Origin: Streptomyces sp. NRRL S-1022
GTDB lineage: Bacteria > Actinomycetota > Actinomycetes > Streptomycetales > Streptomycetaceae
Direction: 5' to 3'
Assembly (NCBI RefSeq): GCF_000720135.1
Contig: NZ_JOIU01000011.1
Span: forward strand, 186,001-250,000
Length of the DNA: 64,000 nucleotides
Part shown: one piece after another, positions 13,067 through 18,308 of the stretch
Position numbering within the stretch: position 1 is the stretch's first letter
Layout: the number at the start of each line of letters is the position of its first letter
The notes under the pieces: generated by a model
Databases searched by the model: none
The model's input: only the letters and a program-made list of their open reading frames with translations
Told to the model about the DNA's origin: nothing
Program-made: the position numbers and the translations under genes

Positions 13067-13537
13067 TCAGTGACCGTCTCGGCACCGGCGTACGCGGCAC
13101 ATGACCACCGCCGTGAGCCGCTCGAAGGGGACGGGACCGGTGTGCCGCGAGTCGTAGCTGGTCTCGCGGTGGTCGCCGAGGACGTAGACGTGACCGGGTG
13201 GTACGGCGTCCCTTCCGTCACCCGAGTCCGGTAACGCGTCGCCCGGGAGACCCACGACCCGCTTGATCATGCAGGTGGGTGTGGCGGACTCGGCGGGGCG
13301 CGGGCCGTGCGCGGGCCGGAGCCGGATCGCGACCACCGTACCGCGGCGCACGAGTCGTGCCGGGCACCTCAGGTGCCCGGGCAGTCTGGCGGCCAGCAGC
13401 CGGTCCCCGTCCTGGTAGGCCGGCCGCATGCTGCCACCGCTGACCTCGAGCAGTAAGCAGGCCTTGCGCAGGACGAGGGTGAGCGCCCCGGCCGCCGCGA
13501 CCACGGCGGCCGGGGCCGCCCATGTCATCGGTGTCAC
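13067..13537 (-). CDS. S26-family signal peptidase, probable leader peptidase of the peptide cassette
   Basis: The 156-residue enzyme has one N-terminal membrane segment (AAPAAVVAAAGALTLVL). The catalytic serine is in VSGGSMRPAY (about residue 36), the catalytic lysine in MIKRVVGLPGD (about 92), and the conserved GDHRETSYDSRHTGPV is present. It is about half the size of housekeeping actinobacterial SipX enzymes and is the last gene of the leftward peptide operon. Its GTG start overlaps the ABC transporter stop (GTGA). I infer that it trims the exported precursor after the A-G-A motif at residues 21-23, since the exporter has no peptidase domain of its own. Confidence 0.88.
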   Translation of the reverse strand: MTPMTWAAPAAVVAAAGALTLVLRKACLLLEVSGGSMRPAYQDGDRLLAARLPGHLRCPARLVRRGTVVAIRLRPAHGPRPAESATPTCMIKRVVGLPGDALPDSGDGRDAVPPGHVYVLGDHRETSYDSRHTGPVPFERLTAVVMCRVRRCRDGH

Positions 13538-15423
13538 GGACGAGCCCCCTCCGGCTCGGCCGGCTCGTCCCGGTAGCCGCTGGACTGGAGCGTGAACAGC
13601 CGTTGGTACGTGCCTCCTTGGGCGATGAGTCGTCGGTGGTCGCCGAGTTCACGGACGCGCCCGTCCTCCAGGACCGCGATGACGTCGGCGTCCTTGACCG
13701 CGCCGAGCCGGTGGGAGATCAGCACACTGGTGCGTCCGGCGCGACGTTCCCGCAGCCGCGCGTGGATCTCGTACTCGGCCGCAGGGTCGAGTCCCGAACT
13801 GGGCTCGTCCAGGATCAGCAGATCCGCGCCCGTACGCAGGAACGACCGGGCGAGCCCCATCCGTTGCCACTGCCCGCCTGACAACTGGACCCCCATCTCG
13901 GTCCCGTCCCCCTCACTTGAGCGGAAGGTCCGGCTCAGCAGGGTGGCGTAACCACGCGGAAGCCGGGCGATTTCCTCGTGCATGCCGGCGAGCCGCGCCG
14001 CCTCCTCGCAGCGCCGGAGATCCGACAGCGCGCTCAACTCGCCGATGCACACGTTCTCCTGGGCGGTGAGGTCGTAGCGCATGGGGTCCTGGAAGGTGGC
14101 GGCGATGCGCGCCCGCAACTCGGCCGGAGCGATGTCTCGCAGGTCGGTGCCGTCCCACAGGATGCGCCCGCGCGTGGGGTCGTAGAACCGGCACAAGAGC
14201 TTGACCAGGGTCGACTTGCCGGATCCGTTGACGCCCGCCAGCGCCAGCGCCGTGCCACGCTCGATCCGCAGGTTCACCCCCCGTAGCACCCAGGGCAGTT
14301 CCTCCTCGTAGCGGAACCACAGGTCCTGGATCTCGATCCCCTCACGCAGCGGGCCCGCCGGGCGAGGGCGGTGCGGAGCGGGCAGGTCGGGGCCGAGCCG
14401 GAGGACGGTGACGTAGTGGTCGAACATCACCAGCGAGTGGTGCGTCTGGCCCAGTTCACCGGCCAGTCCGCCGATACCGCTCTGCACGGCGGGGATCGCG
14501 GCCAGCAGCATGGAGACATCGCCGACGGTCATCGCCCCGCGCGAGGCGGCCCCGACCGCCCACAGCAGACTTGCCCCGGCGAGGACCGCGGCGGCCGTCT
14601 GGAGCGCCGACTGGATCCGCAGTTCGCTGCGGTCCTGTCGCTCTCTCAGGGCGTCGGCGGCACGGCGCTCGCTGAGCATGCGGCCGCGCAGGAATCCCCC
14701 GGCACCATAGAGGCGGATCTCCTTGGCGGCCTCCACACTGGTGAGGAGGGTCGCGTAGAAGATCTCCCGGCGCTCGGAGGGGCTGATGTCCCAGAAGGTC
14801 CGCGCCCGCCTGCGGCTGAGGGTGATCTCCGCCCACAGCACCGGAATGCCGGACAGCGACACCGCCACCGCCAGGAACGGGTCGAGGATCGCGAGGGAAC
14901 CGACGAACCCGGTCAGCAGGACCGTGCTGCGGATCAGACCCGCCGCGCCTTCGACCACTTGGGACGGTGCGAGCCCGCCGGCCTGTTGGGCCAGTCGCAG
15001 CTGGTCCAGAAACTCCGGGTGTTCGAACCGGCGCAGCCCGGTGAAGGTGTCGACCCGGGCGTGCAGGCGCTCATGGGCGCGCAGGCTGGTCACGCGCATC
15101 ATCCTGGCGCGCAGATAGCCGGTGAACTGCGGGGCGACGGCTGCGATCGTACTGACGGCGGCCAGCGTGCTCGCGGGTGCGGCGATATCGGCCGCGGACG
15201 CTCCCGAGGTGAGCGTGTCGAGGATGTCCTTGACCAGCCAGGTGACCACGACCGGAGCGGTGGCCGACAGCAGGGTCACGGCGAGGTGGCACGCCAGCAC
15301 CCAGGGGGACGAGCGGAAGGCGAGCCCCAGGGCCAGGCGCAGGGCACGGACCAGGTCCTGGGGGCCGGGAACGGATGGCGCGGGGACGGGCTTGCCGGCG
15401 TCCTCGCCGAGTGTGCGGCTCAT
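13534..15423 (-). CDS. ABC exporter, fused permease and ATPase, probable peptide export
   Basis: The 629-residue half-transporter has a six-helix exporter domain over roughly residues 30-330 and a nucleotide-binding domain. In the latter are Walker A GVNGSGKST (about 397-405), the Q-loop TFQDPMRY, signature LSGGQ (about 514), Walker B LLILDEP (about 535) and the switch histidine in LISHRLG. There is no N-terminal C39 peptidase domain, so leader removal needs another enzyme, here the next gene. ATG at 15423 overlaps the redoxin stop (ATGA). The operon position, between a thiol-redox pair and a signal peptidase and downstream of a six-cysteine precursor, suggests peptide export. The substrate is inferred. 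Confidence 0.92.
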   Translation of the reverse strand: MSRTLGEDAGKPVPAPSVPGPQDLVRALRLALGLAFRSSPWVLACHLAVTLLSATAPVVVTWLVKDILDTLTSGASAADIAAPASTLAAVSTIAAVAPQFTGYLRARMMRVTSLRAHERLHARVDTFTGLRRFEHPEFLDQLRLAQQAGGLAPSQVVEGAAGLIRSTVLLTGFVGSLAILDPFLAVAVSLSGIPVLWAEITLSRRRARTFWDISPSERREIFYATLLTSVEAAKEIRLYGAGGFLRGRMLSERRAADALRERQDRSELRIQSALQTAAAVLAGASLLWAVGAASRGAMTVGDVSMLLAAIPAVQSGIGGLAGELGQTHHSLVMFDHYVTVLRLGPDLPAPHRPRPAGPLREGIEIQDLWFRYEEELPWVLRGVNLRIERGTALALAGVNGSGKSTLVKLLCRFYDPTRGRILWDGTDLRDIAPAELRARIAATFQDPMRYDLTAQENVCIGELSALSDLRRCEEAARLAGMHEEIARLPRGYATLLSRTFRSSEGDGTEMGVQLSGGQWQRMGLARSFLRTGADLLILDEPSSGLDPAAEYEIHARLRERRAGRTSVLISHRLGAVKDADVIAVLEDGRVRELGDHRRLIAQGGTYQRLFTLQSSGYRDEPAEPEGARP

Positions 15424-15974
15424 GTCGACCCGGCCGGGGAGGTGGTGAGCGCGGCGTTCCCCACGGCCAGGACGGTGGGTGCCGTTCCGCTCCTCGCCGA
15501 GACGGCGAACTGGCAGGGGTAGGCGGTGACACCGAAGGCCGAGGTGCAGGGACCTTCCGGATCTTCGGACAACACCGTGGCGACAGGCTTGAGTTGGCTC
15601 ACCATGAACTCGGCCTCCGCCTTGTCGTCCGGCGTGGCGTTCGGCGACACGACGACGGCGACGACCTGGCGGTGGCCGCTCATCGCCTTCGCCTCCTCGA
15701 CGAAGCGGGGTAGTTTGCTGCGGCACGGCAGGCAGCCGGTGGTGAAGAACGCCACCAAGGCCCCGTCCGTGAGGTCCCGCTCGGTGATCGGGGGCCCTGC
15801 CACACAGTGCGTGGCGAAGGTGCCCACGGTCGCCCCGACGGGCAGACCACCCGTGTCGTCCGCCAAGGTGCCGTCCGGGCGGTCGCGGAGCCGGCGGAGT
15901 ACGGCGAGGGTCAGCATCAGATCCCAGGTGCACAGGGCGGCGACGGCCACGAGGGCAGCAGCCAGGTAGACCAT
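15420..15974 (-). CDS. MauD/TlpA-like membrane-anchored thioredoxin-fold protein
   Basis: The 184-residue protein starts with an anchor (MVYLAAALVAVAALCTWDLMLTLAVL) and carries a thioredoxin-like domain with ALVAFFTTGCLPCRSKLPRFVEEA, the C-L-P-C redox pair at about 81 and 84. A cis-proline-like AFGVTAYPCQFAV lies near 155. MauD proteins work with MauE to form the disulfides of the methylamine dehydrogenase light chain. Here no dehydrogenase is present; the neighbour is a six-cysteine peptide. I infer that this protein oxidises or shuffles the disulfides of that peptide outside the membrane. It follows MauE by 47 bases and overlaps the ABC gene. Confidence 0.85.
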   Translation of the reverse strand: MVYLAAALVAVAALCTWDLMLTLAVLRRLRDRPDGTLADDTGGLPVGATVGTFATHCVAGPPITERDLTDGALVAFFTTGCLPCRSKLPRFVEEAKAMSGHRQVVAVVVSPNATPDDKAEAEFMVSQLKPVATVLSEDPEGPCTSAFGVTAYPCQFAVSARSGTAPTVLAVGNAALTTSPAGST

Positions 15975-16021
15975 GGCGGGCCTCTCCGGTTGGTAGTTCA
16001 GAAGTTCGGGAGTGTCGTTCG

Positions 16022-16594
16022 TCAGTTCGGAGGCGTCGTTCGGAAGGCGCCGTAGGGAAGGGGCGGACGGCCATGACGCACGAGCGAGACGATCTCCTCT
16101 CCCGTCGCCACCACAACGGCGCACACCGCACCGATGAGCCAGGCCGAGAACACGCCTTGCCAGGACAGGGAGTGGCCGCCCTGCGTTCCCGGCACGGCCG
16201 CCGCGACGGCGGTGAGCAGCAGGCTGTTGCGGACGATCTGGGGCCATCCCGCCGGGCGGTCGCCGGACGTCCCGAAGCAGTGGCACGTGACCCTGTTGCC
16301 GTCCCGTAGCGCACGGGCGATGGCGTAGGTGAAACCGGTCAGCAGCACGGCTGCCGCCGCGAGCCCCACTCCGTGCAGCGCCGGAACGGCGAGGCACAGT
16401 GCGGTCAGGGCTTCCAGGGAGACGATCCCCGCCGCCAAGCCGCCCGCCAGGCGCCGCGGCACCCTCCCGAGTGTCACGACGGTGTCCGAGAAAGCCGCGA
16501 ACGAGGCAGCGGTGCGCACCTTGCTCACACAGGCGCCGGTGAAGACGAGCGCCAGCAGTCCTTGGCATGTCGAGGAAAGGAAGTCCACGAGCAC
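16022..16594 (-). CDS. MauE/DoxX-like membrane protein, probable thiol-redox partner
   Basis: The 190-residue protein has four to five hydrophobic helices: GLLALVFTGACVSKV, LAAGIVSLEALTALCLAV, GLAAAAVLLTGFTYAIA, GVFSAWLIGAVCAVVVA. It has the family motif G-N-x-V-T-C-H-C-F-G, with the cysteine pair at about 104 and 106. MauE is an integral membrane protein needed with MauD for disulfide formation in methylamine dehydrogenase. The pairing here with a MauD-like redoxin, an exporter and a six-cysteine precursor suggests that it passes electrons from the oxidised peptide into the membrane. That step is an inference. Confidence 0.85.
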   Translation of the reverse strand: MLVDFLSSTCQGLLALVFTGACVSKVRTAASFAAFSDTVVTLGRVPRRLAGGLAAGIVSLEALTALCLAVPALHGVGLAAAAVLLTGFTYAIARALRDGNRVTCHCFGTSGDRPAGWPQIVRNSLLLTAVAAAVPGTQGGHSLSWQGVFSAWLIGAVCAVVVATGEEIVSLVRHGRPPLPYGAFRTTPPN

Positions 16595-16682
16595 TCCTCA
16601 CGGCGGTCCACGGAAGGTTTCGCGGGAGGGGGTACGCGGCCGGTGGTCCGGCCGGCGCGTCGTGCACCTCCCGTGCGTCCGA

Positions 16683-16714
16683 CGGCCGGGCCCCGTCTCC
16701 TTGAGGCCCGGCCG
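16683..16714 (-). terminator. Stem-loop between the precursor gene and the rest of the operon
   Basis: CGGCCGGGCC (16683-16692) and GGCCCGGCCG (16705-16714) form a perfect 10-bp stem with a 12-base loop, about 20 bases beyond the stop codon of the 63-residue precursor. No T tract follows. A partial terminator or RNA-stabilising hairpin here would give more precursor than processing enzymes, as in many peptide operons. The effect is inferred. Confidence 0.6.
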
Positions 16715-16733
16715 CGGTGGGCTGCTACCGGCC

Positions 16734-16925
16734 TTACGACGTGCAGCCGCACCGTACGAACTCGCGCCTGTTCAGGTCGCACGACCAGACGCGCTGCGTG
16801 TACTGGTTGTAGGAGGAACAGGGCTGGTTGCGGATGCAGCGGTACCACCACTCGCATGCCCCGGCCGTCTCCCGGGGCACCAGGTGGTCCAGCATCCGGT
16901 CGGCGAGGGTGCGGATCGTCTTCAT
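16734..16925 (-). CDS. Six-cysteine precursor peptide of a probable disulfide-rich exported peptide
   Basis: The 63-residue product has a charged leader (MKTIRTLADRMLDHLVPRE) without a Sec-type hydrophobic core, then T-A-G-A at 20-23. A core rich in aromatic residues follows, with cysteines at 24, 30, 36, 49, 59 and 61, ending C-G-C-T-S. The A-G-A before Cys24 fits the small-x-small rule of signal peptidases, and an S26 enzyme closes the operon. The ribosome binding site AAAGGA is eight bases before the ATG. No lanthionine, cyclodehydratase or radical-SAM gene is nearby, so three disulfides, made by the MauE/MauD-like pair, are the likely modification. Activity (bacteriocin, signal or other) is unknown. 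I do not recognise the sequence. Confidence 0.8.
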   Translation of the reverse strand: MKTIRTLADRMLDHLVPRETAGACEWWYRCIRNQPCSSYNQYTQRVWSCDLNRREFVRCGCTS

Positions 16926-17056: not shown

Positions 17057-17117
17057 TGTCCCGGACACGGCGGGGCTGTCCGGGCTGGTCACGGATCTGT
17101 CCGGGTCGTGTCCGGGA
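17057..17117. promoter_or_regulatory. Cluster of TGTCCGG-type half-sites in the divergent promoter
   Basis: A dyad TGTCCCGGACA (17057-17067) is followed by three direct copies of TGTCCGGG starting at 17077, 17098 and 17109. The spacings of 20, 21 and 11 bases are close to one or two helical turns. The same core occurs as a palindrome at the start codon of the divergent XRE gene. This looks like cooperative binding of that regulator between the peptide operon and its own gene. Confidence 0.6.
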
Positions 17118-17182
17118 CGGTCGAGTGGTGGGACGGCGATTGGCAGAATCCCGGATTGTCCACCGCGAGGGACCGGACGAAG

Positions 17183-17194
17183 ATGTCCGGACAT
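17183..17194. promoter_or_regulatory. Perfect palindrome overlapping the XRE regulator start codon
   Basis: ATGTCCGGACAT is a perfect 12-bp palindrome whose last two bases are the first two of the regulator's ATG. It shares the TGTCCGG core with the upstream cluster. A repressor bound here would block transcription or initiation of its own gene, and a leaderless or very short leader is possible because no good ribosome binding site precedes this ATG. Confidence 0.6.
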
Positions 17195-18308
17195 GGGGAG
17201 ACAGCGTCCGCTACCGCAGGAGGCGCGCAACGTCGCGGAGTTCGTGGCCTGCATGCGGCAGCTCAAGGAACGGTCCGGGCTGACCTACCGCCAGTTGGAG
17301 GCCAACGCGCAGCGGCGCGGGGACGTGCTCGCTCGGAGCACGGTCGCCGACGCGCTGCGCCGGGACTCGCTGCCGCGTGCGGAGGTCGTCGCCGCGTTCG
17401 TCCGAGCCTGCGGGAGAGACGAGGACCCCACCGCCTGGCTGGAGGCCAGAGACCGGCTGGCCACCGACGAGCCCTCGTACGCGGACGACGGGGTGCCGCC
17501 CCAGGACAGCGGATTGCCGCCCGGAGGAGAAGGGCCGACGCTCGGGCACGACCGGTCGAAGCTCGCAGAGGGAGGGCCGGCCCACTCGGACGACGATCCG
17601 CCGTTCGACGCGACGCGCGAACAGTCCACGACGCAGAAGGCGTTGACACGCATCAGAAGCCGGCCCGTCCTCGCGTTCTGCGTCGGCACCGTGCTCCTGC
17701 TCGCCGCTGCGGGAGCCTGGGCGCTGCTGCCGGGAGGAACGGGCGACCGGGACCCGGCGGCGCACGAGGCCGGTGCGACACCAGGCCTCGCCTCCTCCTC
17801 GGCCCCCGTCTCGACCACCGGCTCCGACGGCCCGGCAGCGGGGCCCACCCGGATCCGGCCGGCTCTGGCCGCCGGGCTGTGCATCACCGAGGGCCACGAC
17901 CGCAAGGGGCGTTACCGCAGCCAGGTCGCCGTCCAGCACCCGTGTGCCGACGCCACACCACCTGACGTCTCCCTTGTCCCTGTCGGCAAGACAGGCTCGT
18001 ACTACATCCAGTGGCGCCATCCGGTGTACGGCGACGGGTGCCTCACGGCCCTGGGCAGCGGTCATGTCGTCGAGGGACTGCTCGAACCCTGGCCTTGGGA
18101 GAGCTGTTCGGCGGACCGCACCAGCCAACACTTCTTCTTCGACCCCGTCGACAGCTCCGGCGACAACGCCTTCCGGATCCACGTCGTGCAGAACGGAATG
18201 TGCCTCGGCATCAACGGCGCCGACGACCGGGCGGTGGGCGCCGAGATCGCTCAGCAGCGCTGCACGGGAGCCCGGGACCAGGAGTTCCTGGTGGATGCCG
18301 CCGGCTGA
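17193..18308 (+). CDS. Membrane-anchored XRE regulator with extracellular ricin-like domain
   Basis: The 371-residue protein has a helix-turn-helix domain at about 12-75 (SGLTYRQLEANAQRRG, STVADALRRDSLPRAEVVAAFVRACG) and an acidic linker. A single transmembrane segment follows at about 158-178 (PVLAFCVGTVLLLAAAGAWALL). The exported part at about 218-368 has cysteine pairs and the Q-x-W-like blocks of a ricin-type beta-trefoil (GMCLGING, AEIAQQRC). The design suggests a one-protein sensor: the outer lectin-like part reads a ligand and the inner part binds DNA. It is divergent from the peptide operon, with shared repeat sites between, so it probably controls that operon and itself. The ligand is unknown; the peptide or cell-wall sugar are candidates. 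Confidence 0.8.
   Translation: MGRQRPLPQEARNVAEFVACMRQLKERSGLTYRQLEANAQRRGDVLARSTVADALRRDSLPRAEVVAAFVRACGRDEDPTAWLEARDRLATDEPSYADDGVPPQDSGLPPGGEGPTLGHDRSKLAEGGPAHSDDDPPFDATREQSTTQKALTRIRSRPVLAFCVGTVLLLAAAGAWALLPGGTGDRDPAAHEAGATPGLASSSAPVSTTGSDGPAAGPTRIRPALAAGLCITEGHDRKGRYRSQVAVQHPCADATPPDVSLVPVGKTGSYYIQWRHPVYGDGCLTALGSGHVVEGLLEPWPWESCSADRTSQHFFFDPVDSSGDNAFRIHVVQNGMCLGINGADDRAVGAEIAQQRCTGARDQEFLVDAAG

Follow-up and report, generated by a model that had tools for sequence, protein, structure and literature searches.

The 64,000-nucleotide stretch of Streptomyces sp. NRRL S-1022 analyzed here (assembly GCF_000720135.1, contig NZ_JOIU01000011.1, positions 186,001 to 250,000; hereafter the window) contains a cassette of five leftward genes encoding a small six-cysteine precursor peptide, a MauE-family membrane protein, a membrane-anchored thioredoxin-like protein (redoxin), an ATP-binding cassette (ABC) exporter, and a short S26 signal peptidase (Table 1). 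An earlier note, made from the letters alone, had pointed to these genes as a candidate new cassette for a disulfide-rich exported peptide, and both the coordinates and the Pfam matches agree with its description of all five, including the CLPC motif of the redoxin and an exporter devoid of its own peptidase domain.

Table 1. Features of the cassette and its upstream region (window positions; TM, transmembrane)
Feature	Position	Strand	Details
Precursor peptide, 63 aa	16734..16925	-	leader and six-Cys core
Precursor leader, residues 1-23	16857-16925	-	C-terminal AGA
Precursor core, residues 24-63	16737-16856	-	six Cys, C-x5-C-x5-C-x12-C-x9-C-x-C
MauE-family membrane protein, 190 aa	16022..16594	-	four TM-like segments, C-H-C-F-G motif
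Membrane-anchored thioredoxin-like protein (redoxin), 184 aa	15420..15974	-	CLPC, one N-terminal TM-like segment
ABC exporter, 629 aa	13534..15423	-	ATPase domain with Walker and signature motifs
Short S26 signal peptidase, 156 aa	13067..13537	-	one TM-like segment, Ser (GGSMRP) and Lys (IKRV) motifs
Cluster of TGTCC(G)GGACA-like sites	17057..17193	.	gap between precursor and divergent regulator; possible operators
Divergent helix-turn-helix / TM-like segment / ricin-B-type protein	17193..18308	+	possible cluster regulator

The MauE protein is recognized by PF07291 (88.6 bits, cut-off 27) and the signal peptidase by PF10502 (73.2 bits, cut-off 22.9); the latter also meets the type I signal peptidase equivalog TIGR02227 (73.5 bits, cut-off 47), with both the Ser and the Lys motif in place. 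The ABC protein has a match to ABC_tran of 96.3 bits, a membrane domain below threshold (17.4 bits, cut-off 28), and no Pfam match to Peptidase_C39. The redoxin matches AhpC-TSA below threshold (24.6 bits, cut-off 26), and in NCBIfam only weak matches of the StoA, DsbE, TlpA, ResA, and thioredoxin types were found. The two overlaps that had been described among the last three genes were located at 15420-15423 (ATGA, redoxin and ABC genes) and 13534-13537 (GTGA, ABC and S26 genes).

Neither Pfam nor NCBIfam has a model that matches the precursor, its matches among PDB sequences are at chance level (best E value 0.54), and a scan of 56 family members against models gave weak matches confined to single members; on these searches a known precursor family was rejected. 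A chance open reading frame (ORF) was rejected as well, on the evidence of the family, which has more than 100 members, and of the ratio of nonsynonymous to synonymous proportions of differences (pN/pS). The precursor and its relative in locus L035 are separated by 12 synonymous and 4 nonsynonymous differences (pN/pS about 0.1, that is 0.028/0.275), and four further pairs of family members have ratios from about 0.13 to 0.4. The G+C content at third codon positions (GC3) of the precursor gene is 0.95. Close public relatives exist (P0001 and P0002). Searches with the precursor or with its profile gave 35 public proteins, of which 33, four of them already counted below, have an even number of cysteines, the exceptions being P0003 (a 105-residue ORF with a differing end) and P0035. 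Where the sources name these proteins at all, they are called "hypothetical" or "uncharacterized".

The same gene set recurs well beyond the window. When the window redoxin was used as query, 54 of 392 congeneric genomes proved to contain relatives. In a first set of 41 loci (the window and 40 fetched loci) the MauE, redoxin, and ABC genes are present throughout, with a broken ABC frame in L043, and the S26 gene in 40; the redoxin CxxC and the MauE CxCFG are kept in all 41 loci, and the Ser and Lys motifs of the peptidase in 38 of 40. A leader model built from 21 precursors trimmed by hand, which was later followed by a second one, finds a leader-plus-core ORF in 39 of the 41 loci, mostly 0.8-1.3 kb upstream of the redoxin gene. 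The precursor of L070 is weak with the first model (E value 0.52) and better with the second (0.022); L045, which has no leader match, is cut at a contig end. A set of 46 named loci, several of which coincide with some of the first 41, adds Embleya, Nonomuraea, Actinomadura, Amycolatopsis, Pseudonocardia, Rhizocola, and Sphaerimonospora; a leader match was obtained in 40 of them, L115 and L118 are matched by the second model only, and two others are cut at contig ends. Finally, 40 later loci have MauE, redoxin, and ABC genes without exception, an S26 gene in 37, and 36 precursors distributed over 32 loci, three of these precursors repeating earlier sequences. The earlier note had proposed such a search for cysteine-rich frames upstream of MauE-redoxin-ABC-S26 sets and had named their consistent absence as the contrary outcome; most loci carry the frame.

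The precursors share a leader of 23-24 residues ending in A-x-A. Among 70 distinct precursors, counted after a weak antisense match with no cysteine (L095) was dropped, alanine occupies position -1 in all 70 and position -3 in 69, the leader is free of cysteine, and the core has a median length of 42 residues and a cysteine content of 19%; in 68 precursors a cysteine lies within the last three positions of the core. Pairs of leaders have a median identity of 46%, pairs of cores one of 28%. An AGA leader end at residue 23 of the window precursor agrees with the 40-residue core suggested before, for which monoisotopic masses of 4995.19 Da (reduced) and 4989.14 Da (three disulfides) are calculated. 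A C39-dependent, GG-type bacteriocin was considered and rejected on these alanine counts and on the exporter's lack of a C39 domain.

The number of cysteines is even in 69 of the 70 precursors, and in the later loci in 36 of 36, of which 35 have A-x-A. When the last four columns of the leader model, including A-x-A, were removed, the matches in the later loci (E values up to 0.02, at least three cysteines, a filter that excluded none) still had alanine at -1 in 29 of 29 and at -3 in 28 of 29, and all 29 were even. Overall, 116 of 119 distinct cores are even, and 113 of the 119 have six (53 cores), eight (41), or ten (19) cysteines; the odd ones are those of L038/L075 (seven), L181 (seven, a decayed locus), and L194 (three, a short frame). 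The 119 cores retain L181, L194, and the truncated L184 (two cysteines, no alanine at -1); L183, with no cassette gene near it, and the five-cysteine frame of L118 were left out. After clustering at 50% identity with the shortest member as representative, cysteine is even in 52 of 54 core clusters, whereas the corresponding figures for eleven other residues are 23-33 of 54. Complete intramolecular disulfide pairing would predict just such even counts in cores that otherwise conserve little. We consider it likely, on the strength of the sequence patterns, that the cassette is a system for ribosomally made peptides whose only covalent modification is the full pairing of their cysteines.

The same cores could also be viewed as exported metal binders, metallothionein-like or metallophore, whose thiols are kept reduced by MauE and the redoxin: CxC occurs in 60, CC in 67, and CxxC in 71 of the 119 cores, and redoxins of the TlpA/ResA type are often reductants. 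However, even parity is required by pairing and not by metal binding, the cysteine spacings vary widely, and histidine makes up only 1.3% of core residues, so that we regard a metal-binding role as unlikely.

A different possibility is that the product carries further crosslinks, thioether or other, introduced by enzymes whose genes lie elsewhere or that are too diverse to form clusters. Among the 56 scanned members, weak matches of the cinnamycin and duramycin type were found, in one member each, and cleavage at A-x-A by a type I signal peptidase has also been postulated for cinnamycin-type lantibiotics in the accessible text of PMC12837462. In contrast, a survey of neighboring genes in 112 loci, by rough GC3-based calling of genes of at least 80 codons (eight variant loci, L181-L188, and redundant named loci left out), which would miss rarer or smaller genes, found no tailoring or class-defining enzyme of ribosomally synthesized and post-translationally modified peptides (RiPPs), whether of the lanthipeptide, lasso, sactipeptide, or azole kind, in five or more loci. 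This extends to many loci what the earlier note had observed at one. Disulfides alone explain the parity, and additional crosslinks appear improbable.

The groups that do recur in at least five of the 112 loci, besides the cassette itself, are regulators of the BTAD or Streptomyces antibiotic regulatory protein (SARP) type (two groups, in 33 and 14 loci), AraC-like regulators, HTH_31-type proteins, a response regulator, a second group of ABC ATPases, and a major facilitator superfamily transporter. Pfam, applied to four representatives, confirmed BTAD in two and an AraC-type helix-turn-helix in one and gave a sub-threshold HTH_31 match in one; the others are named from sequence. Of the 112 loci, 49 contain SARP-like (BTAD) genes, and in 45 such a gene lies no more than 3 kb from one of the cassette genes. 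The neighborhood as a whole fits a secondary-metabolite cluster and argues against a fixed tailoring enzyme.

One may further suppose that MauE and the redoxin mature some other extracytoplasmic protein and that the small ORF is a bystander. The distribution of the genes makes this very unlikely. Within the 392 congeneric genomes the redoxin model (E values up to 1e-13) matches 61 and the precursor model 59; both match in 55 (Fisher p about 4e-55, relatedness ignored), and 75 of 83 precursor matches lie within 6 kb of a redoxin match, while 69 of 83 redoxin matches have a precursor match within the same distance. The precursor is also present in loci with rearranged genes or with genes on the opposite strand (L067, L070, and L073). 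The six genomes with a redoxin and no precursor match favor the bystander, although L197, from one of these genomes (G110), contains a weak leader frame; in the four precursor-only genomes, the matches are either unsupported by the leader model (G264 and G355) or remnant-like (G102 and G367). The genome of the window itself has one precursor and one redoxin match above chance.

At the class level the redoxin model (E values up to 1e-15) matches 29 of 394 genomes in 11 of 137 genera; a single other family (f89) accounts for 19 of these genomes, 13 of which have at least two matches. In a phylum sample, scores better than 1e-20 occur in only 2 of 396 genomes, the rest being mostly weak TlpA-like matches. 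Several variant arrangements were observed. Two redoxin genes lie near MauE in L189, L190, and L197, and the genome region of L268 has two redoxin matches. L181, L183, and L184 have leader matches with partial or no ABC and S26 matches and no redoxin; the cassette apparently decays there as a whole. The cassette of L080 is carried by a plasmid (SNP1 of Streptomyces nigrescens HEK616), which hints at mobility.

Maturation of methylamine dehydrogenase likewise involves a MauE-family protein and a membrane thioredoxin-like protein, and the MauE match might thus mark a remnant of that pathway. Here, in contrast, the redoxin has no match to the MauD model, and the partner is a small hypervariable peptide. 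The MauD model TIGR02661 is not among the matches of the redoxin and has no match at an E value of 0.001 in the whole genome, a search in which the control matched in 3 of 14 cases and never above the cut-off; the dehydrogenase subunit models PF02975 and PF06433 have no match in the genome, and both of their controls were equally silent. No dehydrogenase gene is among the recurrent neighbors. A dehydrogenase remnant is thus hardly credible.

Of the known systems, sublancin-type clusters also combine a dedicated oxidoreductase pair with an ABC exporter for a disulfide-bonded peptide. They differ in having BdbA/BdbB-type proteins, a C39-containing exporter, and a glycosyltransferase. The nearest characterized actinobacterial peptide among those compared is actifensin, described in the accessible text of PMC6989792 as a peptide of 37 residues with three disulfides and a GA-type cleavage motif. 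Actifensin and the defensin-like bacteriocins share with the cassette a leader, a variable disulfide-bonded core, and nearby ABC genes; that text, however, names no MauE, redoxin, or S26 protein at the actifensin locus, and the C6 defensin spacing given there (C-x5-12-C-x3-C-x9-10-C-x4-5-C-x-C) does not accommodate that of the window core.

The claim of novelty made for the cassette has to be narrowed. The decRiPPter study of 2020 (PMC7794033) reported, in its accessible text, 42 candidate families, three Streptomyces ones with mauE and one of these also with mauD, and proposed a role in precursor modification; no other mau genes were found with them. Because every cluster had to contain a transporter, a peptidase, and a regulator to pass its strict filter, the mauE families probably included exporter and protease genes as well. 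Compared by description, these families probably overlap with the system described here: both have mauE beside a cysteine-rich precursor, whereas the decRiPPter precursors have at least eight cysteines and the window core has six. Thus the association of mauE with such precursors was already listed in 2020. The accessible text of PMC7794033 gives no leader motif, A-x-A, parity, S26 step, or product, and the term "S26" is absent from its main text. No later description of the cassette was found in the open-licence PMC literature searched.

Under the proposed mechanism, the leader would direct the ribosomally made precursor to its own ABC exporter. Once outside the membrane, the core cysteines would be paired by the anchored CxxC redoxin, with electrons passing from the redoxin to MauE, through its CxC, and on to the membrane electron pool, and the S26 peptidase would cleave after A-x-A to release the core. 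Since the machinery is expected to recognize the leader, the core could vary freely. The window precursor has neither a TM-like stretch nor a signal-peptide-like hydrophobic stretch in its leader, and the lack of a TM-like stretch favors ABC export over Sec. The earlier note had read the genes in the same way (oxidation by the redox pair, export by the ABC protein, leader removal by the S26 enzyme), and this still appears to be the best explanation of the gene sets and the parity, at the level of predicted steps. In this reading the peptide would most likely act as a secreted antagonist or signal.

Several observations weigh against this explanation. Because TlpA/ResA-like redoxins are often reductants, as mentioned above, oxidation by the pair is a predicted rather than a proven direction. 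The precursor of L038/L075, with its seven cysteines, is apparently intact, and in L118 the same leader precedes a five-cysteine frame with only weak MauE and redoxin matches. L040 has a MauE-redoxin-ABC set with no precursor nearby, and eight of the 40 later loci lack a leader match. Some leaders are more hydrophobic than that of the window (best 11-residue mean hydropathy, median 1.0, maximum 2.27). AlphaFold models the window precursor poorly (predicted local distance difference test score, pLDDT, 49); the core of the L081 precursor is modeled at a pLDDT of about 75-84, read as beta-alpha-beta-beta, with no PDB match found. Finally, no immunity gene recurs in the 112 loci, where genes below 80 codons were not called, which weakens a bacteriocin reading. 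As to the two unusual loci, the S26 frame of L040 is without the Ser and Lys motifs, and at 2836-4958 of L118 the five-cysteine frame is followed by a 600-residue asparagine synthase-like gene; L118 is possibly a lasso-like variant or a decayed locus.

Upstream of the window precursor, half-sites of the TGTCC(G)GGACA type have seven matches in 280 bp, where 0.17 would be expected from their density in the window; the pattern occurs six times upstream of the precursor in L035 and not at all in L036. The divergent protein encoded there has an HTH_31 domain, a single TM-like segment, and, at its C terminus, a ricin-B-like part, and is possibly a membrane-bound regulator. Relatives with HTH_31 and ricin-B-like parts are found near the cassettes of L035, L043, L057, L094, L100, L195, and L196.

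Taken on the sequence evidence, the precursor family is real, widespread, and hypervariable, and it is accompanied by dedicated genes with predicted functions in export, oxidation, and cleavage. We think it probable, if with somewhat less assurance than for the disulfide-pairing reading of the cassette, that it represents a distinct ribosomal class of actinomycetes, "disulfide-only" peptides, in which one leader and a general ABC/redoxin/MauE/S26 machine handle almost any core with paired cysteines. If so, it would be a bacterial counterpart to the hypervariable peptide libraries of venoms or defensins, and MauE would gain a directly testable role outside methylamine metabolism. The leader together with the MauE-redoxin-ABC-S26 set would be a signature for many disulfide-rich secreted peptides missed by current family models, and the system would offer a leader-guided platform in which 54 core clusters are already represented.

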